Made by a program: the position numbers and the translations under genes. This document shows positions 138-30,811 of a stretch of DNA of 64,000 nt, piece after piece. Position 1 is the first letter of the stretch; each line of letters begins with the position of its first letter. The notes beneath the pieces were generated by a model. The model was not told where the DNA came from and searched no databases. It saw only the letters and a program-made list of their open reading frames with translations. Source of the DNA: Leifsonia shinshuensis (GTDB lineage: Bacteria > Actinomycetota > Actinomycetes > Actinomycetales > Microbacteriaceae); the NCBI RefSeq assembly GCF_031456835.1, contig NZ_JAVDVK010000001.1, positions 2,418,001 through 2,482,000 of the forward strand. The letters are read 5' to 3'.

Positions 138-3100
138 CTACCGCAGGCGTCGCCTCAGCCGCCTGACGAGGACGAGCGCGCTTCCCGAGACCAGGAGGAA
201 TGCAGCGCCCACCAGGGCGGGAACTCTGTCCAGACCCGTCGAAGCCAGCCCGACGGGCCGGTCGGCGTCGACGGTCACCCGGGCGGTCGATGGCTGCGAG
301 GTCGCCAATACCAGCGTCAGCGGGACGGCGCCGGTCGCGACCGCGGTGTTGACGATCGCGTCCGACTGTACGTCGGCGCTGGTTACGTCATAGGTCGCGG
401 CGCAGGTCGCCTCTCCGCCAGGGGCCAGCGGCCCCGTCGGGCAGTCGACCGACAGCCGCCCGGTGCCAGTGAACGCGCGCTCCACGACGGCGACGTTCGC
501 CAGCGTGACATTGCCGTCGTTGGTGATCCGATAGGTGTACCGGATGCTCTGGCCAGCTGCGCTGACGCTGTCACGATCCGCCTGCTTGACCAAGGTGAGC
601 GCGGGATGCTGCGCGATGGTGACCGTTGCCGTCGAGGCGGCGGACGTCACGGCGGCGCCGTCAGGGTCGAGTCCGGAGGCCGTGGCGGTGTTATCGATCC
701 GGCCGCGATCCAGGTCCGCCTGGGTCGCGGTGTAGCTCACCGAGCAGTCGACCACCTGCCCCGGCGCCAGGGTGCCGGTGCAGCCGCTGGGGACGAGCGG
801 ACCGCTTCCGGTGAAGGTGCCCTCGACCACATCCACCCCACTGACCGTGACGTTGCCGGTGTTCGCGACGTGGAACCGGAAGGTCACGGCCTGCCCCGGC
901 GCGGTGATCGAGGCGACGTCGGCCGTCTTGGTCAGTGCGAGGCCGGGTGTCCGGTCGACGGACACCGTGACCCGAGCCGAAGTCGCGGCGACGTTCGCGC
1001 CCGCCGGGTCGGTCGCCGTCGCGTCGCCGGTGTTCGTGATGCTGCCCGCGTCGATGTCGGCCTGAGTCACGCGGTAGGTGGCGACGCACGTCGTCTCTTC
1101 GTCCGGCGCAAGGGTCGTCGACGGGCAGCTGATCGCGGACACCGTGCCGGTGCCGGTGAAGGCCAGCTCGTGTGCAGCGACCGCAGCGACGCTGACGTTA
1201 CCGGTGTTGGTGACGAGGAAGCGGTACGTGATGGCCTGGCCGGCGGCATCCACGGTCGCCCGATCGGCGGACTTCGTGACGGTCAGCGCGGCCGACTGAA
1301 CCGCCATGACGCTCGCGCTGCTCGGATCCGAGGTGACCAGGGCGCCGCTCGGGGCGGACCCGGACGCGACGGCGGTGTTCGTGATGGAACCGCGGTCGAT
1401 GTCTTGTTGCGTGACCGCGTAGGCGGCGGAGCAGTCCATCGACGCGCCGGGGGCGAGGTCGGTGCGCGGGCACTGGATCTGCCCAGGGAGACCGGATCCA
1501 GTGAACGCCTGGTCGCCGACGACGATGCCGGTGACTACGACGTTGCCCGCGTTGGTCACATGCAGGTTGTAGTGGATGCTCTGCCCCGCCGCCGAAATAC
1601 TGGCCACATCAGCGGTTTTCGTGAGAGCCAGCGCCGGCGCCTGAGCCACTGTCACCGTCGCGGTGGACGTGGGGGAGGTCGTCGTCGCGCCGCCCGGGTC
1701 CGTGCCGGTCGCCACCGCGGTGTTGACGATCGTTCCGGCGTCGATGTCGGCCTGGGTGACCGCGTAGGCGGCGGTGCAGGTCATGGTCGCGTTCGGTGCC
1801 ACGCTGGTCTGCGGGCACGTGGGCTGATCCAGGTTCCCTGCCCCGGTTGTTGAACCGGTCCCGGTGAACGACACCTCCTTCACGGTCACGCCGTTGATGG
1901 TGACGTTGCCGTTGTTGCCGACCTCGAAGCTGTACTGCACGACCTGGCCGGGCGCGTTCACCTGGGCCGGTGTCGCGGACTTCTGGATGGTGAGGCCGGG
2001 CACCTGCGCGACCGTGACGATCGCAGAGCTCGAGACGTCGGGCAGCGCCCCGCCGCTCGGGTCGATGCCGGTGGCGGACGCGGAGTTCGTGATCGTCCCG
2101 CGGTCGATGTCGGCCTGCTGCACGGTGTAGCTGGCCGTGCAGACCGTCGACCCGGCGGGCGCGAGGGTGGTCACGGGGCAGGTGATCCCCGACACCGTTC
2201 CAGCCCCGGTGAACGTCTGCTCCTCGACGTCGATTCCGGTGACCGTCACGTTGCCGACGTTGCGGACGGCGAACTGGTACGTGACCGTCTGGCCCGCCGT
2301 GGTGACGTACGTCGGGGTGCTGGTCTTGGTCAGCGTCAGCGCCGGGGACTGGTTTGCGGTGACCAGGGCGGTGCTTGCCAGCGAGGACACGTTCACGTTG
2401 CCCGGTGAGGTGGCGGTGGCGTTGGCGGTGTTCTCAAACGCGCCGTGGTCCACATCCAGCTGGCTGACTGTGTACGCGGCGGTGCAGATCATGCTCACGC
2501 TAGGCGCCAGCGTGGCGCTCGGGCAGCTGATCGAGCCCAACGGGTTGCTGCCGCTGAAGCTCTGCTCCACCGGTTGCACGCTGCTCAGCGTCGTGTTGCC
2601 GGTGTTCGTCACCACGAAACGGAATGTCACCGCCTGCCCCGCAGCGGTCACCGTCGCAGGCGAAGCCGTCTTAGAGACGGTGAGCGCCGGGGCGCGCGTC
2701 GCGGTCACTACCGCGGTGCTGTCGGCAGAGGAGACGGCCTGACCCGCCGGGGTGGCCGCGGTGACCGCGGCAGTGTTTGTGATCGTTCCCCGGTCGATAT
2801 CGGCCTGGGTGACCGTTGAGGTGGCGATGCAGGTGGTGGCTGCTCCAGCAGCCAGGGTCGTCGTCGGACAGTTGACCGCACTCAGACCCGCACCGCTGAA
2901 CGAGCCTTCGACCACGGTGACGCCGCTCAACGTCGTGTTGCCCGTGTTGGCGACTTTGTAGCTCCAGGTCACCGTTTGGCCCACCGTGTCCACGGTTGTC
3001 GGGCTCGCCGTCTTCTGCAGTGTCATGGCCGGCGCTGGGACGGCGTTTACGGTGACAGAGTTCGACACGGTGGTGAGCGCTCCGCCCGTCGGCGGCTGCG

Positions 3101-6100
3101 CCGTCACGGTGGCGCGGTCGGTGACGTGGCCGAAGTCGAGGTCTGCCGCGGTCGCTTTGTAGGTCGCGACGAAGGTGCCGACCTGTCCCGGTGCGAGCGT
3201 CGTCGAGGTTCCGGAGCACGTCGCTGCCGGCGTCGAGCGAGAGCTGCAGGTGACAGTGGGCGCCGCCGCGCCGGGTGCCCCGTCGATGATTGCGTCCGTC
3301 ACGGTCACCCCGGATAGGGTCACCGCCGTGTTGTTGGTTACCTGGAAGGTGTACGACACGGTGTCGCCGGCGGCGCTGTAGGTAGGCGTTGACGTCGCCT
3401 TCACGATCTGCGGCTGGGTTTGGGTCGCCTGCAGACCGGTGTACGACGACTCAGCGGTCGCAAGGGGCGTCGCGCCGGAGTACACGGTCGTACCGACGCT
3501 GTTCCAGGCGACGCTTCCGACGGTCGCGTTCGGGGTGGAGACGGTGTAGGAGATGCTGAACCGGGTGGTGCCCGCGTCGCCCGCCACGAACACGGTGCCG
3601 TCGTACGCGAATCGCAGCGCCGTGGTGGCCCCCACCGGGCTCGGAACCGTCGACGACCAGTCGTTGACACATCCTGGGTTGCTCGCCAGCACTTCGGGAC
3701 GGCAGGGATTCGCCGCGGTGGAGTATTGGACGGACACTCCGGCGGGCAGGGTCCCGAGCGACGTCAGAGTCGCGCGGAACTGCGACTGCCGCGCCTTCGT
3801 CGAGCTCGCCTCCGTGTCGCCGACCCGGGGCAGGAGATCGTACATGACCGGGTTGTCCAAGTTCGCCGCGCCGGTGTTGGCGAAGCTGACCGTGTAGGTC
3901 GCCGCACCTCCCGTCGGGCTGACCGTGCCGATCCCGCCGGAGCCGACGGGGGCTGCGTCGAGGTTGCCCTGGACTTGTTTGTCCACGGCGAACGCAGGGT
4001 TGATCGCCGCGACGGCGAGTGGGGCCGACATGCCGCAGTAGTTCGAGGTGCCGATGCCGTTGGAGGTCAGATCGCTGTTCGCGGTCGGGTTCTTCGGCAC
4101 GCCCGCCGATGGTGCGGCGAGGTTCTTGGTCGAGTGGTCGATGCACGCCGTCAGGGCGGCAGCACCGCCGTATCCGACGGTGATGTCGTTCTGGTACACG
4201 CCCGCGCAACCGCCGGGCAGTTGGACGGTGAGCGGGTTCTGCTGGATCTCATAGTCGCCAGGTTGGAGGACGACGCCGGCGGGGATCGTCCACTCGTACA
4301 AGGTGCGACCGGTGCCGTTGAAGTTCGGCGTCATTACAGCCGTGATCGTGCCCGCGGAGTAGCTGCGCGCGCCCGAGAAGGTTGTGACCTGGCCGTAGTT
4401 GGAGCCGGAACTGTGGGCCAGCACCAGCTTGATGGGAGTGGTCGCCCCAGCCGTCACGACCGCCGCCTCAGGCGCGAGGTAATCCACCGTGATCTGCTGC
4501 GAGGGCGCAGTGGTGATCTCGACCGAGTTGTTCGATGCTGTGGTGTTGTTGAACGCGACCGTTTCCGTGCACGTCGTCGCCCCGTTGTAGGTGGCGTTCA
4601 CGACCGGGTTCAAAATCGCTCTGCCCTGTGCGCCGGAGTTCTCCACGATGATCGAAGCGGAGCCTGTGTCGGTGGCGAGAGGGGTCGAGTCCCCGACCTT
4701 GAAAGCTTGGCTCGTCACCGTGTTCGTGAGGACGATCGGGCCGAGCGCCTCGGCCGCTGCGGACGCATATCCGCGCACTTCGATGGTGAGGCCGCCAGCC
4801 GGGTTGGAGCCCTGGCTCGCAATCGGGGGGACGTCGATCTCCGCGATGGGCAGATCGGTCGGAATCGTCCACCCGGCACCGGCCGCGTACGCCACGGTCG
4901 CCGTGCTCCCGTCCGGGTGGATCAGCGTCAGCGGAGTTCCGGTCGGGGGCACGAAGCCGGCGACAGTGACAGCGGTGGGCACGTAGAGCGGCGTCTGGCA
5001 GTAGGGTGCGCCAGGAGCGAGCGAGCTGTAAACGGCGCCGGAGCCGGCACTGAGACACGGCATCGGGTCTCGGACGGCGAAGTCGGCGCCGGCGTTCGCG
5101 CCGTTGGAGCGGAGGAGGATGTCGAACAACGCGGTGCTGCCGGATCCGTCCCAATTGCCCGGGTACGTATAGGGCGTGAGCGGCGTCCCGAATCCTCCGA
5201 CGCTGTACTGGCCGCCGTTGTACAACGAGGTCGTGTAGCTGGCCTTCTGAACGAAGTCCGCCGGCACAGGACTCGAGACCGTCGCACATCTCGGACCGGC
5301 GGTCAGGGTCCCCGGCGTCGAGTCGACGTATGTGACCGAGCCTGTCAGGCTTGCACAGAGCGTTGTACCGACCGGCGTCGGCGAGGACCCGTCTGTGGTC
5401 ACGGTCCCGTTGATGTTGATGACCGGCACCGTGCCACCTGGGCCGCCTCCGGCGGTGGATCCGTATTTCGGGTCCGCGCAGGTCGCGCCTGTCGGGTCCG
5501 AGTACGAGACGGTGCGGCTCGCGACGTCGTAGGCGAGGATCGCGCCTGGCGGCGTCCCCGACGGGGTCTGCTGCAGCGTCGTCTCCGTGAAGCCGGTCGG
5601 CAAGGTGACGGTGAACGAGACGCTGCTCGTCCCGATGTCGCCGCTGAGCTGCTGTCGGACGGCGGTGCAGTCGAGGCTCACGCTGAACGAGAATGCGCCA
5701 CCCGGAACCGTCGTCGGCGTGGCCGCGAGGGTGGCTTTGACGTTGCGACCGGCGGTGACCGTCAGCACTGCCGGCGTCGGCGCGACCGCGCCGGCGAACC
5801 CCGTGTACGCGACTGTCGGGGTGATGGTGAGCTGCGCGTTGTTGTAGGTGAAGTACTCCGGCGGGGTGACCGTGAAGTTGCATCCCATCCCGCCCGTCGG
5901 CACGGTGCCGTAGTTGAACGTGACGACCCCGGTGCCGACGGTCTTCGTCACTCCCGAGCAGGTCGAGTTGCCGACCCAGCTCGCGAAGTCGTTCGTCGGC
6001 CCGTCTCCGGTCAGCGTGGTCGTCGGGAAGCTGACGGTGGTGTTCGCGCACCCGCCGGTCGTGCTGCACGACACGACGACGGTGAACGTCGCGGCCTGGC

Positions 6101-23318: not shown

Positions 23319-23975
23319 CTATGTCCGGGCGCGCGGCCCTCTCGTGCGGGGCGGAGTGAGGTCGGGCGGTGTCAGCAATGCGTCAAGCCGCGCAAGCAGC
23401 GGCGCTAAGGCGGTCTCATCTTCGGTGTCGTACGCGAGCAGAGGACCCTCCACCGCCAGCGCCTCTCGCGCGTCATTGCCGAGTGTTGCGCGGAACTGCT
23501 CGGCACGCTGGCCGTCTGCGTGCCCCGGGTGGCGGTTCCCGTCCTGCTCGCGTCGAAAGAACCGTCGCGTCAGCGCGTCGGGAGAGGCGGTGCAGTGGAC
23601 CTGGATCGCGGTGAACCCGTACCGCTGCTGCCAAGCTCGCACCTTCGCGTCCTCATACGCCGGGTTGTAGGCAGCGTCGACGATGAACGAAGCGCCGGAT
23701 TGCAGGAGGAGTTCGATGGAGTAGTCCAGCAACGCGAAGCTCGCCCTGCCGAGCCTCTCCGACCATTGGACGTCCCCGACACCGAGGGTGTCGAACAGAC
23801 GCTCTTTGATGTCGTCCTTCGCCACGATGGGTAGGTGTCGCCGCTCCGAGATGATGTGGCTGAGCGTTGACTTGCCGGAGGCCGGCCGGCCCACCACGAA
23901 TATGACCGTCTGGTTGGCGGCTGCAGCCGTGAGGCCTTGCCTGGGATCGGGACGGAGCGTCGTCGGATCGGTCAC
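23319..23975 (-). CDS. P-loop kinase-like ATPase
   Basis: 218 aa from GTG at 23975. Walker A GRPASGKST (~residues 33-41), a following LPIVAKDDIKERLFD lid-like helix and a FIVDAAY strand (Walker B-like) match the AAA_33 / zeta-toxin-like small-molecule kinase group found in many bacterial genomes. The substrate is not identifiable. It diverges from the leader peptide of the tyrosyl-tRNA synthetase gene, leaving only 61 bp between the two start codons, so their promoters overlap. Confidence 0.8.
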   Translation of the reverse strand: MTDPTTLRPDPRQGLTAAAANQTVIFVVGRPASGKSTLSHIISERRHLPIVAKDDIKERLFDTLGVGDVQWSERLGRASFALLDYSIELLLQSGASFIVDAAYNPAYEDAKVRAWQQRYGFTAIQVHCTASPDALTRRFFRREQDGNRHPGHADGQRAEQFRATLGNDAREALAVEGPLLAYDTEDETALAPLLARLDALLTPPDLTPPRTRGPRART

Positions 23976-25489: not shown

Positions 25490-25518
25490 ATCGGCTGAGA
25501 CGAAGGGATTTGAACCCT
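25490..25518 (-). other. Left attachment-site repeat (attL/attR) of the tRNA-Ser island
   Basis: 29 bp matching the 3' end of tRNA-Ser(GCT) plus 5 nt beyond it (30718-30746), with two mismatches and in the same orientation. The flanking minus-strand sequence up to ~25600 retains tRNA-like pieces (GGCCTAGT of the D-loop, an almost pairing acceptor TGAGAGG / CGTCTCA) but no 7-nt anticodon loop, so it is a remnant, not a functional tRNA. Confidence 0.75.
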
Positions 25519-25660
25519 GACGGCACTCCTAAAGTCGCATTTCGGCGCCCAGAAAATCGCGGAATCTCGCGTCTCTGCAATGACTAGGCCGCCTCTCAGC
25601 TGACCATGGTTGTGAGGTTGTTGTGGGGGCTGAAGCCGTCACCAACCGAGCATCCGGGAG

Positions 25661-26344
25661 TCACCACCCGCACGACTGCACAATCTGAGCGCCGACACGG
25701 ACTTCTGTACGGACCTGCACGGTCTCCCCTGAACTCGACGCGAAGGTCAGCCGGATCGTCGCGACGCCTCTGCTATCCGCGTACGAGTCCTCTGTGGCAA
25801 GCACGTGGCCGTCGGACGTCGCGACCGTGATCGCTCTTGCCGCGTCGGGCAGACGGGATATGGTCCCGGTAACCGAAACGACCTCACTGTCCGTGGTGCT
25901 CCGCTCGATCCGGGCGTTGCACGTGATCGCGGTCGCGGTCTGGGTGGGTGCCGGCGTCACCGAGCGGGAGGCTGCTACGGGGGTCGGTGATCCGAAGACA
26001 TGGACGCTCTGCTGGGTGCAGAGCAGCCAGAGCAGGACGCCTGCGGTGACACCCCACGCGACCGCGAACGCGGGCGCGCGGCGTGCGCCGGCCTCGCGAG
26101 CGATCGCCCAGACGATCCATGCCCCGAGTGCCGCGATCGCTGCAGCGCCGAAACCGGCGCCCCAGGCGGCAACCCCGAACGCGAGCAACACCGTGAGGAC
26201 GGGAGGTATCGCCCACAGCCATTTGCCGAACACCGGTGACTTCTCGGAAGGAGCTGCCGTCTCAGCCGCCGCGTCTGATGCCGTAGGGGCAGCTTCGCTC
26301 GGTGACGACTGCTCGCCCTCGTGGGGAGTGTTCTCTCCCGTCAT
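25661..26344 (-). CDS. Unknown membrane protein with extracytoplasmic C-terminal domain
   Basis: 227 aa from the ATG at 26344 (GAGG 8 nt upstream). A 38-residue acidic, Ser/Ala-rich head precedes three hydrophobic segments (about residues 40-58, 62-82 and 90-108). A ~100-residue beta-like domain with two cysteines (ITCNAR and QSCGW at the C-terminus) would be outside the cell and may form a disulfide. I recognise no family. It diverges from the zinc-ribbon/membrane gene pair across 107 bp. Confidence 0.65.
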   Translation of the reverse strand: MTGENTPHEGEQSSPSEAAPTASDAAAETAAPSEKSPVFGKWLWAIPPVLTVLLAFGVAAWGAGFGAAAIAALGAWIVWAIAREAGARRAPAFAVAWGVTAGVLLWLLCTQQSVHVFGSPTPVAASRSVTPAPTQTATAITCNARIERSTTDSEVVSVTGTISRLPDAARAITVATSDGHVLATEDSYADSRGVATIRLTFASSSGETVQVRTEVRVGAQIVQSCGW

Positions 26345-26451
26345 GTGAGCATCCTCGCAGCCGCCGGATAGTCGGGAGCGGTGACACACCGGGGCATTCA
26401 CTTGAAATACTGCGGAGAGTAAGCTACGCGCGAGGTCGATCGGGGGTGGCT

Positions 26452-26622
26452 ATGGGCATCGATGGGGTTTCGAGCACCCCGCCCGGTCAACGGCCGATGA
26501 AGGGCCGAGGGGATGCTGTGTGCCCAGAATGCGGCAAGCTAATCGTGGATGTCCGAAAGTCGCGACAGTGTTGCGAGGATGGGCATTGGACCCGGATCTC
26601 CGGTAGGGGTCGGAATGGCTGA
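26452..26622 (+). CDS. Small zinc-ribbon-like protein
   Basis: 56 aa from the ATG at 26452 with a G-rich stretch immediately upstream. CPECGK followed 16 residues later by CCEDGHW gives a C-x2-C ... C-C-x3-H metal-binding pattern. The stop codon overlaps the next gene by 8 bp, indicating translational coupling with the membrane protein. Function unknown; small zinc ribbons beside membrane proteins can be adaptor or sensor subunits. The frame is short, so existence as a protein is likely but not certain. Confidence 0.55.
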   Translation: MGIDGVSSTPPGQRPMKGRGDAVCPECGKLIVDVRKSRQCCEDGHWTRISGRGRNG

Positions 26623-27601
26623 TTTCACCTCCGACCCGAGCCTCGGGACGACATCGACGATGGGCAGGTATTTCGGCGTCGTCTCGACGGTCCCCTCGCT
26701 GATCGGCACCACGTGGTTGTATTTGCTTTTTATCCTTCGCCCGTGGCAATCGCCGCTTGACTGGGAATCGCTCGCGACCAACAACCCGATCGCCCAACCC
26801 CTTCAGGGTTTGGCGCTCATCGCGGTGGCAATCACAATCGCGGTCGTCACCCACCCGATCCAGGTCGTCATCACCCAGACCATGGAAGGATACTGGGGGT
26901 CGAGCACCGCCGGCCTGGCATTCGCGTACCGAAGAGCTCTGGCCCAGACGAGCCGCCGAGCGAGAGCAGCCACCCTCCGCGCGCAAGCGCTCGCGGAGAC
27001 GCCTCCAAAAGATCGGCGCGGCCGCCCATGGTCACCCCTAATGCGAGCTCTCACTTTTACGGCGAGCACGACGGTGATCGGGTCATACCCCGCTTCGTCG
27101 AAAGACATCCTCCCGACACGCCTCGGCAACGTACTTCGGCGCTACGAGGCTCGAGGCGGCAAGGCGATCGATCTACCCATTCTTGATTGGGCCACTTATA
27201 TCGGCATGGTCGGCGACCCTCGCCACACCGCCTATGTCCAAGACCAACGCCAGGAAATGGACCTGGCCGTGAGAATGACGGCGGTCAGCCTATTCTGCAC
27301 CACGGTTTCGGCGATAGCTCTCTGGCCGCACGGTCTCTGGCTCCTTCTCGCCGTATTCCCATTCGCGGCGGCATGGATCTCCTACCGCGGCGCCTTGTCC
27401 GCCGCGCACGCATACGGACAAGCCTTCGAAGCGTGGCTTTACCTCAACAGGTTCAAACTCTACGAGCACCTCCACCTCGCAGCCCCGCGGAATTCCAATG
27501 AAGAACGCAGACTGAATGAGCTCCTCGACATGCTGGTGCAGGGTGATGACGAATACCAGGCGCGTTATCGCCATCCCTCTCACGAGAAGCCCGCCGACTG
27601 A
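26615..27601 (+). CDS. Unknown membrane protein coupled to the zinc-ribbon gene
   Basis: 328 aa from the ATG at 26615, which overlaps the zinc-ribbon gene. An upstream in-frame ATG at 26549 exists but lies within that gene. Predicted helices at about residues 20-45 and 58-85 are followed by a ~125-residue basic, largely cytoplasmic domain, then a hydrophobic hairpin near 215-260 (SLFCTTVSAIALWPHGLWLL, then LAVFPFAAAWISY) and a charged C-terminal helix. No known family recognised. The island location and topology leave a role in defence or element maintenance open. Confidence 0.65.
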   Translation: MADFTSDPSLGTTSTMGRYFGVVSTVPSLIGTTWLYLLFILRPWQSPLDWESLATNNPIAQPLQGLALIAVAITIAVVTHPIQVVITQTMEGYWGSSTAGLAFAYRRALAQTSRRARAATLRAQALAETPPKDRRGRPWSPLMRALTFTASTTVIGSYPASSKDILPTRLGNVLRRYEARGGKAIDLPILDWATYIGMVGDPRHTAYVQDQRQEMDLAVRMTAVSLFCTTVSAIALWPHGLWLLLAVFPFAAAWISYRGALSAAHAYGQAFEAWLYLNRFKLYEHLHLAAPRNSNEERRLNELLDMLVQGDDEYQARYRHPSHEKPAD

Positions 27602-27661
27602 GGTCATTCAAACGGTCGTTGCCGGCATCCCGTTCCCTATCCCCCGTTCCTCTCTGAACTA

Positions 27662-28030
27662 ATGGCCGATCAGATCGCGGGAAAGGGCCGAGACGACCTG
27701 GTGGTCAGCGACGCGGACGGGCAACACCTTCGACGGACGCGAGTCAGCACCGGCTCACGCAGCTGGTTCAGGACTGCGCTCAGAGCGGCGGAGCTCGAGC
27801 CGATGGCCCTCCACGACCTCAGACACACGGCTGCCTCGTTGGCCATAAGCTCGGGCGCCAACGTAAAAGCGGTCCAGCGAATGCTCGGACACGCGTCAGC
27901 TGCAATGACCCTCGATCTGTACGCCGACCTCTTCGACGACGACCTCGACGACGTCGCTATGCGCCTCCACGCCGCGGTCTCTGCGTCCGACCTGGGCAAA
28001 GCGTGGGGAAGCCAGGACATCGGCGAATGA
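27662..28030 (+). pseudogene. Truncated tyrosine recombinase (phage integrase) C-terminal fragment
   Basis: 122 codons covering only the end of the catalytic domain: HDLRHTAASLAI (catalytic H-x-x-R), QRMLGHAS (the H/W position) and TLDLYADLF (nucleophile tyrosine). The N-terminal arm-binding and core-binding domains and the first catalytic arginine are missing, and no ribosome site precedes the ATG at 27662. It is a relic of the enzyme that probably inserted the island in the neighbouring tRNA-Ser gene, which is the usual target of this family. Confidence 0.85.
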
Positions 28031-28181
28031 CTAACCGATGGGAATCCCTGGGATCTCGAGACTCGCCCGTCTGGAAGAGAGCGATTCGCTGCGGGTGTGC
28101 GATTCAGCGGCCCCGGAGATTCCACCGCAATAGCGCTACCGTTCCACAGGGCCCCACAACCCGCTCGACAGCCATGCGACT

Positions 28182-28709
28182 CTAAACAGGCGGGAGCCCG
28201 GCTACCACCCACGAGACGACAGTTAGGCCCACAGCAGCGTCGACGATCACGAAACAGAACATCAAGAGAGCGAGTCGGAAGTATCGATATTTGGCCTGCG
28301 CGATCTTCGCGAGCTGGTGCGCCTGCGCCCACGCATCGTCGATGCCATGGGCTGGGTCGGGACGCGGAGGACTGAAGCGCTTGGCTACCGACGGCCAGGC
28401 AAATCGGTTTTCGGATTCAGCTGTTCGTGGGAACAGGGCCATGCCGATGAAGATGACTGTGGCGCTGAAGAACAGGACAAGGAAACCGATCGTTACGACA
28501 GTCAAGTCGTGACCCAGGCCGGGGCCCAGCCGCAGGACGCGAGCAGCATCCCCCGACCGGGTCCCCAGCAATGAGGCACTGACGCCGACTACAGCTGCGA
28601 GGGCGGTGATCTTCGCGTCAGCGTTCTTCACCCACCCGCCAAATTCTTGGATGGCCAGCTTGGCCTCTTCCCACTGGGAAGCATTCGGCGTTTCGCTCTT
28701 ACGCCGCAT
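28182..28709 (-). CDS. pycTM: Pycsar-type transmembrane effector (PycTM-like)
   Basis: 175 aa from the ATG at 28709 (GGAGGG 11 nt upstream), overlapping the preceding E2-like gene by 11 bp. The N-terminal helix ends in GGWVKNADAKITALAAVVG, matching the AD-x-KA start of the first helix in Pycsar TM effectors. Hydrophobic segments lie at about 33-49, 69-93 and 143-171. The loop between the second and third is amphipathic (residues ~120-142). In known Pycsar systems this type of effector binds a cyclic pyrimidine mononucleotide and damages the inner membrane, stopping phage growth. Assignment rests on this pattern plus the cyclase in the same operon. Confidence 0.8.
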   Translation of the reverse strand: MRRKSETPNASQWEEAKLAIQEFGGWVKNADAKITALAAVVGVSASLLGTRSGDAARVLRLGPGLGHDLTVVTIGFLVLFFSATVIFIGMALFPRTAESENRFAWPSVAKRFSPPRPDPAHGIDDAWAQAHQLAKIAQAKYRYFRLALLMFCFVIVDAAVGLTVVSWVVAGLPPV

Positions 28710-29289
28710 TCGGGTGATATCCCTCCGAGAGCCACTGGCGCGAGGACAGTCGCCATACGACGTACTGGGCGTGCCAATGCGCCGCCCAAGCGATGACGGT
28801 CGCGGAGGTGTCGGAGCTGGGATCCCAGTCCGACTCTTCTGCGACACACAGCAGCCCACTGACGTAAAGGTGCGGCGACGGCACGTAGCGCCTCCCTGCC
28901 CGCCGCTCGCGGCGCTTGCCGTCGATCGGTACCACTGCGGGAAGTCCATGATCCCGCCGATGGACGATGGCGACCGTGAATTTCCCGAACCCGGTGTCGA
29001 TCTCCCCTGCGAATCGAGGAGGTTCGGCGGGGTCGGAGATGTCCACGAAACCGGGAAACGCCAAGGCAACGGCGGCGCGTTCCTTCTCCATGGCGCCTGG
29101 CTCTTCCCACCAGGAGGTTGTCGCGCCAGCGTCGATGTTATCTTCACCGCCGTGGAAGGTGTGCGGCTTGACCGGGGTCATGCTGGCCGGCACCACAACG
29201 GTGTTGTCGAGGAAGTGGATCTTGCCCTGAGGGTCAACATGGGGCCGAACGTTGTGGCCCTGATGGCGAAGAACGTCGAGAAGTGTCAT
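28699..29289 (-). CDS. E2-like (ubiquitin-conjugating-fold) protein in the Pycsar operon
   Basis: 196 aa from the ATG at 29289, which overlaps the cyclase stop by 4 bp; its own stop overlaps the effector start. The first ~60 residues are low in recognisable structure. From there it follows an E2 outline: helix 1 (EKERAAVALAFPGF, ~68-81), beta strands (FAGEID, GKFTVAIVH, LPAVVPI), then PSPHLYVSGLLCV (138-149) with H140, G145 and candidate catalytic Cys148, W155-D-P, and two C-terminal helices ending in WRLSSRQW. Canonical E2s have HPN-x4-G-x-[IV]-C-L and a following W-x-P. No E1, JAB protease or ubiquitin-like gene is present, resembling E2-only CBASS operons. Fold assignment is by eye; a structural comparison could overturn it. 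Confidence 0.6.
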   Translation of the reverse strand: MTLLDVLRHQGHNVRPHVDPQGKIHFLDNTVVVPASMTPVKPHTFHGGEDNIDAGATTSWWEEPGAMEKERAAVALAFPGFVDISDPAEPPRFAGEIDTGFGKFTVAIVHRRDHGLPAVVPIDGKRRERRAGRRYVPSPHLYVSGLLCVAEESDWDPSSDTSATVIAWAAHWHAQYVVWRLSSRQWLSEGYHPNAA

Positions 29290-30107
29290 GACCGCTCCCC
29301 CTGGCCGTAGACGAGTTCCAGCGGCTGATAGGCGACTTCAGCTGCTACGGATTCGGCGTACCTGAGCAGAGGACGCCACTGGTAGTCATAGAAGCTGTAG
29401 GACCGACGCTCGGCGTCGCGGCTGTACTCCTTGGGCGAGTTCTCGTGCTGCGTCAGCCATCTCTTCTCCGGGACGCTCGCGGAGAAGGCCTCGCCAACTA
29501 CGAGTTCCCACGACTTCGCTTGCTTCTCGCACTTGGCGGCAAAATTTGATCCGAAGCCGATCACGTTCACCTCAGAGGTGCCCTGCGTACCTGAGCGGAT
29601 GAAAGTGGCTGCTCCGAAGTCGGCGCCTGCAGACGCCTGCACAGTTGCGATGCCGCGTGCCTGCAGCGCCGGGTTCAGATCAGACTGGACGGAGTCGAGG
29701 GCTACCGCCACTGCAGTGGACGCAAGCGCAACGGACACACGAGAGTCAGCGCCGGGGGCACCAAATCCGGCGAACAGGCCATCGCCTCGAAGCCCGAGGA
29801 CGTGGCCGCCATAACGCGTAACGACGTCAGTGAACCCGGACAGGACCGCGTGGGCGAGGCTGGTGACCTCTTCCTGGCCATCCCAGAAAGTTCGGCCGGT
29901 GAAGTTCCGCAGGTCGAGGAATACGGACGCGATGGGGAACGTGATCTGATCGCCGATTGCGAGGTCCGTCGCCGCCGGATGGCCGGTACGTATCTCGTCA
30001 AAACGAGAAGCGCCCTTTGCGAGCAGCACGTTGTGACCGCGATTGTAGTTCTCGAGCACGCGGTTCGTGAAGGCGGAACCATATCCGCCGGGACTGAGGT
30101 AGGTCAA
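29286..30107 (-). CDS. pycC: Class III nucleotide cyclase, Pycsar PycC-like
   Basis: 273 aa from TTG at 30107, chosen because AAGGAG lies 6 nt upstream. The class III cyclase domain (about residues 55-215) carries both metal aspartates, D65 in SVFLDLRNFT and D109 in LRGDGLFAGFG. The usual N-x3-R transition-state pair appears as N188 ... K192 (SNFAAK). Length, lack of a membrane or sensor domain and the downstream PycTM-like effector match Pycsar uridylate/cytidylate cyclases, which make cUMP or cCMP on phage infection; the product here cannot be read from sequence. The C-terminus ends GQGERS, not glycine. Operon order is cyclase, E2-like, effector, all overlapping. Confidence 0.8.
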   Translation of the reverse strand: MTYLSPGGYGSAFTNRVLENYNRGHNVLLAKGASRFDEIRTGHPAATDLAIGDQITFPIASVFLDLRNFTGRTFWDGQEEVTSLAHAVLSGFTDVVTRYGGHVLGLRGDGLFAGFGAPGADSRVSVALASTAVAVALDSVQSDLNPALQARGIATVQASAGADFGAATFIRSGTQGTSEVNVIGFGSNFAAKCEKQAKSWELVVGEAFSASVPEKRWLTQHENSPKEYSRDAERRSYSFYDYQWRPLLRYAESVAAEVAYQPLELVYGQGERS

Positions 30108-30286
30108 GGTTCTCTCCTTATGGTTGGCAATGCGGAGAGAGATCTGGGGCTCGCCGCCCGTGCGTTTGCGCGCGGACGGCGAAGGGGTTAACCTCGAAAC
30201 TCGATCCCATGCTTATGGATTAGTTCCGGCCTAGAGCTCTCGGGATGGGCGTCTCACGACGTTCCTTTTCGAACTACCGGAGCACC

Positions 30287-30321
30287 AACCCCGTGTCGAC
30301 TGGTACTCGCACGGGGTTTTT
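30287..30321 (+). terminator. Intrinsic terminator of an unassigned plus-strand transcript
   Basis: Stem AACCCCGTG / CACGGGGTT (30287-30295, 30310-30318), 14-nt loop, and five T ending at 30321. No protein gene precedes it on the plus strand for over 2 kb; it may end a small RNA that starts in the region upstream of the Pycsar operon. Confidence 0.7.
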
Positions 30322-30680
30322 GCTGTCGGTTGTTATTTCCGCGAACCACTATATAGCGGGGGTCCGACATCTCCACTCCCCCACATCTAGTGGGCGTGTC
30401 GTCCACAGATGGGGAGAACTTATGCACAGTTTCCACACCCCCCGATGCGGGGTAGAGGGCATCCCTCCGCACCTCGCTCGGCGGCCACCTCAACCGAACG
30501 GCCGCTCGATCGCGAGCCCCAGCACGGGCCAGCGGATGTTCAAGCATCACCGGTCGCGATGCCCATCCATGTCCCTCGAACCCATCGATCGGGGCGGGGA
30601 CGAGTCGGCCTTGAGTCCCCGACGGCAGTCGGCGCAAGAGATGTGGGCAAAATGTGGGCAACTCCGCCGCCCACCAACCG

Positions 30681-30715
30681 AAAAACCCCTGAAATCACAG
30701 GGATTCCGGGGGTTT
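30681..30715 (-). terminator. Terminator downstream of tRNA-Ser
   Basis: On the minus strand AACCCCC... pairs with GGGGTT followed by a T-run (AAAAACCCC at 30681-30689 against GGGGGTTT at 30708-30715), starting 8 nt after the mature tRNA 3' end. Confidence 0.65.
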
Positions 30716-30722
30716 CGATCGG

Positions 30723-30811
30723 CGGAGACGGAGGGATTTGAACCCTCGGTCCCCTTACGGGGACTCCACCTTAGCAGGGTGGTGCACTAGGCCTGACTAT
30801 GCGACGTCTCC
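30723..30811 (-). tRNA. tRNA-Ser(GCT)
   Basis: 89 nt. Acceptor stem GGAGACG / CGTCTCC, D-loop with AGTCAGGCCTAGT, anticodon loop CTGCTAA with anticodon GCT (30773-30775 on the plus strand reads AGC), a long class II variable arm (GTCCCC / GGGGAC) and the T-arm GAGGG-TTCAAAT-CCCTC. Discriminator G; CCA is not encoded. Reads AGC/AGT serine codons. Its 3' end is the integration site of the island to the left. Confidence 0.95.

Follow-up and report, generated by a model that had tools for sequence, protein, structure and literature searches.

In the short (E2-only) form of type II CBASS (cyclic oligonucleotide-based antiphage signalling system), a stand-alone ubiquitin-conjugating (E2) protein works with its CD-NTase. 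Type II CBASS operons that have a full Cap2 and Cap3 conserve a C-terminal Gly or Ala on the synthase, the Gly being needed for conjugation, and in the same report such conservation was not found in operons without Cap2 and Cap3, or without the E2 domain (PMC10097602); donors in type II CBASS end in Gly or Ala (PMC10097602; commentary PMC10449767). Pycsar (pyrimidine cyclase system for antiphage resistance) is described as a cyclase with a receptor (PMC11224242), and two Paenarthrobacter Pycsar loci are given as PycTM plus PycC (PMC11719660). Our literature search found no paper linking Pycsar with an E2, though an earlier mention, for example in tables of operons, is possible.

Here we describe an operon of Leifsonia shinshuensis in which parts of both kinds of system lie side by side. 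The whole stretch of DNA that was analysed (the window) comprises 64,000 nucleotides, positions 2418001-2482000 of a 3.79 Mb single-contig genome. On its minus strand, at 28182-30107, the gene for a 196-amino-acid (aa) protein lies between those for a class III nucleotide cyclase and a transmembrane effector. The operon itself, the membership of the middle protein in the E2 family and its predicted E2 fold are all supported by the evidence given below, and the operon is best read as a three-gene Pycsar variant, which presumably acts against phages.

Three overlapping genes and their Pycsar-like members

The cyclase gene (29286..30107, minus strand; 273 aa) begins with TTG, and from a reading of the sequence this start is preceded by AAGGAG, with a GGAG ribosome-binding site at 30114..30117 (minus strand). 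It overlaps the gene for the 196-aa protein (28699..29289, minus strand) by the 4 bp ATGA at 29286-29289, and this gene overlaps that for the 175-aa effector (28182..28709, minus strand) by 11 bp at 28699-28709. An earlier reading made from the sequence and its open reading frames (the original prediction) had described these three frames and the coupling of the middle one to both neighbours, and had taken the outer two genes to be the known parts of Pycsar; both claims held on re-examination. In PADLOC the cyclase matches PycC (PDLC00767, E = 3.6e-22) and the effector PycTM (PDLC02364, E = 3.4e-15), and the effector also matches the Pfam family PycTM (PF18967) at E = 1.6e-5, its 25.7 bits lying under the cut-off of 27.2. 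The effector of one related locus (L011) was weak against our own model, yet matched PADLOC PycTM at E = 3.4e-15. The receptor or effector expected of Pycsar is thus present, with the E2 gene standing between it and the cyclase.

When a profile of the cyclase family was compared with the PDB, the best match was the cytidylate cyclase 8jsf (E = 2.1e-25; E = 7e-13 with the single sequence), which is EaPycC, of Pycsar clade E (PMC11224242). Alignments of the cyclase covered 19 proteins, including the intact cyclases of two loci in which the E2 gene is split (L019 and L028) and omitting that of L007. The metal residues D65 and D109, singled out by the original prediction, are present in 19/19 and align with D102 and D146 of EaPycC. 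The base-contact positions are mixed relative to this CTP enzyme (the mapping to EaPycC is our own): F63 corresponds to F100, G105 replaces R142 and R107 replaces Q144, so that the two agree at one position of the three, and F63, G105 and R107 are invariant in the 19 cyclases. The window operon is therefore like clade E Pycsar in its class III cyclase with two metal-binding aspartates and in its PycTM-type effector, and unlike it in having a third gene between the two. Both PADLOC and the PDB place the synthase in class III, as PycC, and not among the CD-NTases that are found in short type II CBASS.

At their C-termini, 18 of the 19 cyclases share a common final alignment column, with a tail resembling PTSxIxI. 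The window cyclase ends four columns beyond this, in GQGERS, an extension seen in the window copy only (n = 19), and the cyclase of L007, outside this set, ends in Cys. The original prediction was right that this terminus is not a glycine, and the same holds for most of the family.

The E2-like protein and its family

The 196-aa protein matches the PADLOC E2 model PDLC00877 at E = 5.1e-12, and six E2 models at E = 1.3e-7 or better; the six match all of the 17 aligned family members. (Alignments of the E2-like family omit L019 and L028, in which the E2 is split, and structure-based ones also omit L007; denominators of 17 therefore refer to aligned members, and those of 18 to the intact proteins, L007 included.) A search of the PDB with the family profile gave a single match to E = 10, to 8hsb, an entry named E2 (E = 0.0021; E = 0.0032 with the UBC domain alone), which we take to be the stand-alone E2 of a short type II CBASS. 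AlphaFold2 models were obtained for the whole protein (mean predicted local distance difference test score, pLDDT, 87.1; predicted template modelling score, pTM, 0.85) and for the UBC (ubiquitin-conjugating) domain alone, residues 60-196, encoded at 28702..29112 on the minus strand (pLDDT 82.1; pTM 0.76). Foldseek ranks 1-10 for the whole-protein model are all folds of the UBC or UEV (ubiquitin E2 variant) type, the best at E = 0.051. With the domain model, the 50 matches listed of 221 are all UBC or UEV by entry title, and among these the best E-value is 2.3e-3, with probabilities up to 1.00 and a TM-score of about 0.5. No rival fold appeared among the matches listed, and the E2 fold that had been proposed from the order of secondary structure elements and motifs is therefore upheld. 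The fold match persuades by its consistency and not by any single score, because no Foldseek match reached E = 0.001.

Thirty columns are invariant across the 18 intact E2-like proteins, including H43, F45, H46, G47, G48, W60, W61, H140, C148, W168, W172, W179, R180 and W186. Cys148 (codon 28846..28848, minus strand) is present in 18/18, and in 17/17 of the aligned members, and no other Cys column is conserved; it is accordingly the candidate catalytic cysteine that it had been proposed to be, judged by sequence conservation. Eight residues to its N-terminal side lies His140 (codon 28870..28872, minus strand), likewise without exception (17/17 aligned, 18/18 intact). Of the three residues picked out in the original prediction, then, Cys148 and His140 proved invariant, while Trp155 holds in 16/17 aligned members. 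An HPN motif is a feature of eukaryotic E2s; the family has PH instead (Pro in 16/17, His in 17/17), and His140 occupies the position of the Asn of eukaryotic HPN. This PH arrangement is found also in four bacterial E2s that are remote relatives of the family (loci L002, L009, L010 and L008), with which the family shares the signature PHx[YF]....LC in alignment, and a C-terminal W...W...Y..W pattern is common to the family and the E2s of L002, L009 and L010, the E2 of L008 lacking the first Trp. Peculiar to the family, when set against the CBASS E2s of L002, L009 and L010 (which start approximately at the E2 domain and have no counterpart of the first 59 residues), is an N-terminal extension, residues 1-59 (29113..29289, minus strand), carrying the motif H43-x-F45-H46-G47-G48 (HxFHGG) in 18/18.

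Searches in genomes, where scoring was usually limited to the 8-10 best first-look candidates of each genome, gave the following: with the 196-aa protein, its own copy and one remote match in 28 genomes of the genus, and matches in 3 of 398 genomes of the family (its own included); with a two-row profile, 4/396 genomes of the order and 3/296 of the phylum, again including its own. The same three-gene operon is present in three of the seven other matching genomes (G289, G599 and G619), their E2s being 38-43% identical to that of the window, with 47% for the cyclase and 46% for the effector in one aligned pair. A profile of the cyclase matched 3/297 genomes of the order, its own included, and all three were three-gene loci; at a threshold of E = 1e-15, the PycC model of PADLOC found its own genome alone among 276 of the phylum. 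A first scan of a set of genome contigs gave no match, and a four-row profile search of the same contigs gave 110 candidate stretches that reduced to 18 loci, all actinobacterial, in Gordonia, Leucobacter, Microbacterium, Plantibacter, Mycolicibacter, Geodermatophilus, Mycolicibacterium, Arthrobacter, Mycobacterium, Janibacter, Nocardioides, Kribbella, Glutamicibacter and a metagenome-assembled genome. With the window and L007, and with duplicates counted once (L015 and L027 repeat the operons L003/L004 and L006), this makes 20 distinct operons, all from actinobacteria. Neither viral contigs nor phages gave relatives, and none of the plasmids yielded a member of the actinobacterial E2 family, a weak partial match in Priestia (E = 3e-3) being the one result there.

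In all of the 18 loci from genome contigs a cyclase gene lies 5' and a PycTM-like gene 3' of the E2 gene, so the association is not due to chance. The E2 frame is open in 16 of them and split over two frames in L019 and L028. Thus close homologues do occur with a cyclase, as the original prediction required, and it is only the remote relatives (L002, L008, L009 and L010) that have CBASS or JAB-like genes as neighbours. The E2 is also co-inherited with the cyclase: across 18 operons, pairwise distances correlate at r = 0.90 for E2 and cyclase, 0.72 for E2 and effector and 0.74 for cyclase and effector, values that 0 of 2000 permutations reached. One locus, L025, has in addition a 64-aa duplicate of the cyclase N-terminus (L025:2159-2353) to the 5' side of an intact operon.

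Surroundings of the operon and its remote relatives

The stretch occupied by the window operon has a GC content of 0.61-0.64, compared with 0.69-0.74 to the right and 0.65-0.69 to the left. A tRNA-Ser(gct) gene, found by ARAGORN at 30721..30811 (minus strand), is a likely insertion site for an island, and a partial direct repeat of its 3' end (29 nucleotides, 93% identity), a candidate attachment site, lies at 25490..25518, the other copy being at 30718-30746. Between them and next to the operon, at 27662..28030 on the plus strand, is the C-terminal fragment of a tyrosine recombinase (Pfam PF00589, E = 4.1e-12, covering profile positions 101-169 of 172). The operon appears to be cargo of an integrated and since decayed island, which extends over 25490-30811. 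The same island encodes a 350-aa protein (26549-27601, plus strand) with no Pfam or PADLOC match, and to its left is a gene for an AAA_33 or zeta-toxin-like kinase (23319-23975, minus strand).

Companion genes were sought in the flanks of the 18 loci, where 89 open reading frames (ORFs) of at least 130 aa, within 2.5 kb and at most six per locus, were compared with PADLOC; many of these are probably not genes, and the size limit leaves short ubiquitin-like genes uncovered. The flanks are shorter at L017, L018, L020 and L023. No E1 or JAB family was among the 25 listed of the 217 PADLOC families that these ORFs matched, a listing that matches by a single ORF could escape. Those listed include PD-Lambda-2_B (five ORFs), PDC-M69A (five) and RmrA (four), and, with two ORFs each, a type I methyltransferase, mad2, capP and HTH_VI. 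Because flanking ORFs match other defence families (loci L011-L028), some of the operons appear to stand in defence-rich surroundings. When flanking ORFs of at least 90 aa from the 18 loci were compared all against all, a divergent helix-turn-helix (HTH) gene was found in five and a small protein in four, and the other clusters listed join two loci each. The HTH gene and the small protein lie 5' of the operon, at about 2530-4111 on the minus strand, among L013, L014, L015, L019 and L020, and by eye the two resemble a HigBA toxin-antitoxin pair.

The window genome has no match to a Prok-JAB profile. It has one ThiF-family locus, at C1:281037-281729, which is probably a housekeeping gene because it is far from the operon and because the family is present in 12/14 control genomes. 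By its PADLOC matches none of the three operon genes encodes a ubiquitin-like protein, the search for such a protein being confined to these genes.

Among the remote E2 relatives, those of G020, G868 and G1039 (loci L002, L009 and L010) lie behind a CD-NTase-like gene and so belong to CBASS. For L002 this gene has a SMODS match and a PADLOC cyclase match at E = 3.1e-101; for L009 and L010 it was judged by eye from the ORFs, their E2s having been tested by profile. In G555, another genome of the order, an E2 adjoins a weakly JAB-like 346-aa protein (L008:1414-3038; best E = 1.9e-4), and the two possibly belong to a different ubiquitin-like system.

The cyclase matched three plasmid records. In Haloterrigena (L035) it is accompanied by an annotated Pycsar effector, and in Desulfosporosinus (L033) by PycTM and a second cyclase, neither locus having an E2. 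The third, Chryseobacterium plasmid pA2BH1 (NZ_MN657149.1; L034:2327-4448), has a PycTM-PycC-E2 operon in which the E2 gene overlaps that of the cyclase; the E2, annotated as a SEC-C metal-binding protein, matches PADLOC E2 PDLC00872 at E = 1.4e-51. This operon is like that of the window in combining Pycsar genes with an E2 gene that overlaps the cyclase gene, but it has another E2 subfamily with a SEC-C tail, another gene order and a host of another phylum. Since a PycTM-PycC pair on a plasmid of Bacteroidota carries a different (SEC-C) subfamily of E2, the pairing of Pycsar with an E2 probably arose at least twice. No obvious E2 was seen, from annotation and ORFs, in the four opened of 30 other records matching the L034 cyclase. 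Of seven other records that match the SEC-C E2, four were opened, and in three it lies beside annotated nucleotidyltransferases and in one beside genes of the MBL (metallo-beta-lactamase) fold. This last is on a Runella plasmid (NC_015694.1; L036:2992-5394), where the relative of the SEC-C E2 adjoins MBL-fold hydrolases and not a cyclase.

How an E2 may act with a class III cyclase

What might an E2 do beside such a cyclase? In the mechanism that we propose, the PycC-type cyclase would make a cyclic mononucleotide upon infection, and PycTM would respond to this by damaging the membrane. The middle protein would be an E2-only regulator working with the cyclase, much as a stand-alone E2 works with the CD-NTase of short type II CBASS. 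Its Cys148 may form a thioester (or other covalent) intermediate by which the cyclase would be primed, localised or limited, the operon apparently supplying no E1, JAB protease or ubiquitin-like protein of its own. The cyclase would thus presumably be the partner or substrate of the E2, and its putative covalent priming or release, as the original prediction had it, is a reasonable idea. A covalent action of such an E2-only regulator with the cyclase is in our view the likeliest reading, though no better than an even bet.

The likeness to short type II CBASS consists in a UBC domain bearing the PHx[YF]....LC signature, in an E2 that stands alone (the operon holding cyclase, E2 and effector) and in the coupling of its gene to that of a second-messenger synthase, as in L002, L009 and L010; the differences are the class III partner, the N-terminal HxFHGG extension and the want of a conserved C-terminal Gly on the cyclase. 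With type II CBASS of the Cap2/Cap3 kind the operon shares an E2 module that serves a second-messenger synthase, but it lacks an E1 domain and a Cap3/JAB gene, and a C-terminal Gly or Ala is not conserved on its synthase.

Several points weigh against the proposed mechanism. The operon has no E1 that could activate a donor. The last residue of the cyclase is Gly in 4/19 and Ala in 0/19, a departure from the C-terminal Gly/Ala of type II CBASS with a full Cap2 that leaves a C-terminal glycine donor on the cyclase unsupported. No E2 match was found for the middle protein in Pfam or NCBIfam, so that the assignment rests on the PADLOC profiles together with the PDB profile search and the fold comparison. 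A phmmer search of the PDB with the single 196-aa protein gave eight weak, unrelated matches, the best at E = 0.056, and the Foldseek E-values are modest (5.1e-2 at full length, 2.3e-3 for the domain). The excess of the E2-cyclase correlation may reflect in part a faster evolution of the effector and uncertainty about effector starts, mean pairwise identity being 0.35 for the effector and 0.53 and 0.57 for the other two proteins. Because the cyclase has no conserved C-terminal Gly or Ala, a C-terminal glycine of the CBASS type is probably not the acyl donor; and with neither a conserved glycine to act as donor nor an E1 in the operon, the family cannot work as a plain copy of type II CBASS.

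One alternative is a non-covalent role, in which the UBC fold would have been kept as a binding subunit, like UEV or HORMA adaptors, and the N-terminal HxFHGG would sense a phage trigger and switch the cyclase on. The family-specific extension with its invariant motif, the UEV folds among the Foldseek matches, the strong co-inheritance with the cyclase and the failure to see E1 or JAB genes alongside (in a partial search) would all suit such an adaptor, but one would not expect the active-site Cys to persist in a mere scaffold, as it does in 18/18 proteins of 53% mean identity, with His140 invariant as well, and we regard the adaptor role as rather improbable, if the most serious of the alternatives. 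The missing E1 might instead be borrowed: the E2 could tag phage or host proteins by way of a host ThiF/MoeB-type E1 and a ThiS/MoaD-type carrier, the cyclase merely reporting infection. The single ThiF-family homologue in the genome could serve here, but its distance from the operon and its probable housekeeping role count against it, as do the lack of a ubiquitin-like protein among the operon genes by their matches and the fact that the E2 travels with a cyclase in 18/18 loci, and we think this unlikely. As to the donor, the E2-like protein might itself be conjugated, its small C-terminal residue (A in 13, S in three and V in two of the 18) being moved via Cys148 to the cyclase or effector. 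Such endings recall the Gly/Ala termini of type II CBASS donors, but at several loci these bases also form the beginning of the effector gene, and the reading frame may thus be what fixes the ending; and we know of no E2 that acts as a donor; of the ideas considered here this is the one to which we give least credence. Hardly better placed is the view that the cyclase makes some cyclic nucleotide other than a pyrimidine one, the operon then being a Pycsar-like relative and not strictly Pycsar. It draws on the mixed base-contact positions (F63, with R107 for Q144 and G105 for R142, in 19/19), and has against it a cytidylate cyclase as best match in the PDB, PycC as best match in PADLOC and an effector that resembles PycTM.

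If the three-gene operon is indeed a Pycsar variant with an E2-only regulator, it points to a further kind of alarm enzyme that may be under ubiquitin-like control. Conjugation of the synthase is known from CBASS, in which a CD-NTase has that role. More tentatively, as a proposal that we think somewhat more apt to fail than to stand, ubiquitin-like covalent control could be a general add-on for the second-messenger synthases of phage defence, E2-only modules having joined class III cyclases at least two times, independently of CD-NTases, and working by an undescribed conjugation chemistry that needs neither an E1 or ubiquitin-like protein of its own nor a glycine donor at a C-terminus. Lacking both that glycine and an E1 in the operon, this family offers a clean way to test how E2-only modules function at all, and the operon, with three genes in about 2 kb, is compact, conserved and readily moved to laboratory hosts. 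If E2s are indeed fixed beside a cyclase of unrelated fold, control by E2s goes with the logic of signalling, and not with one enzyme family.

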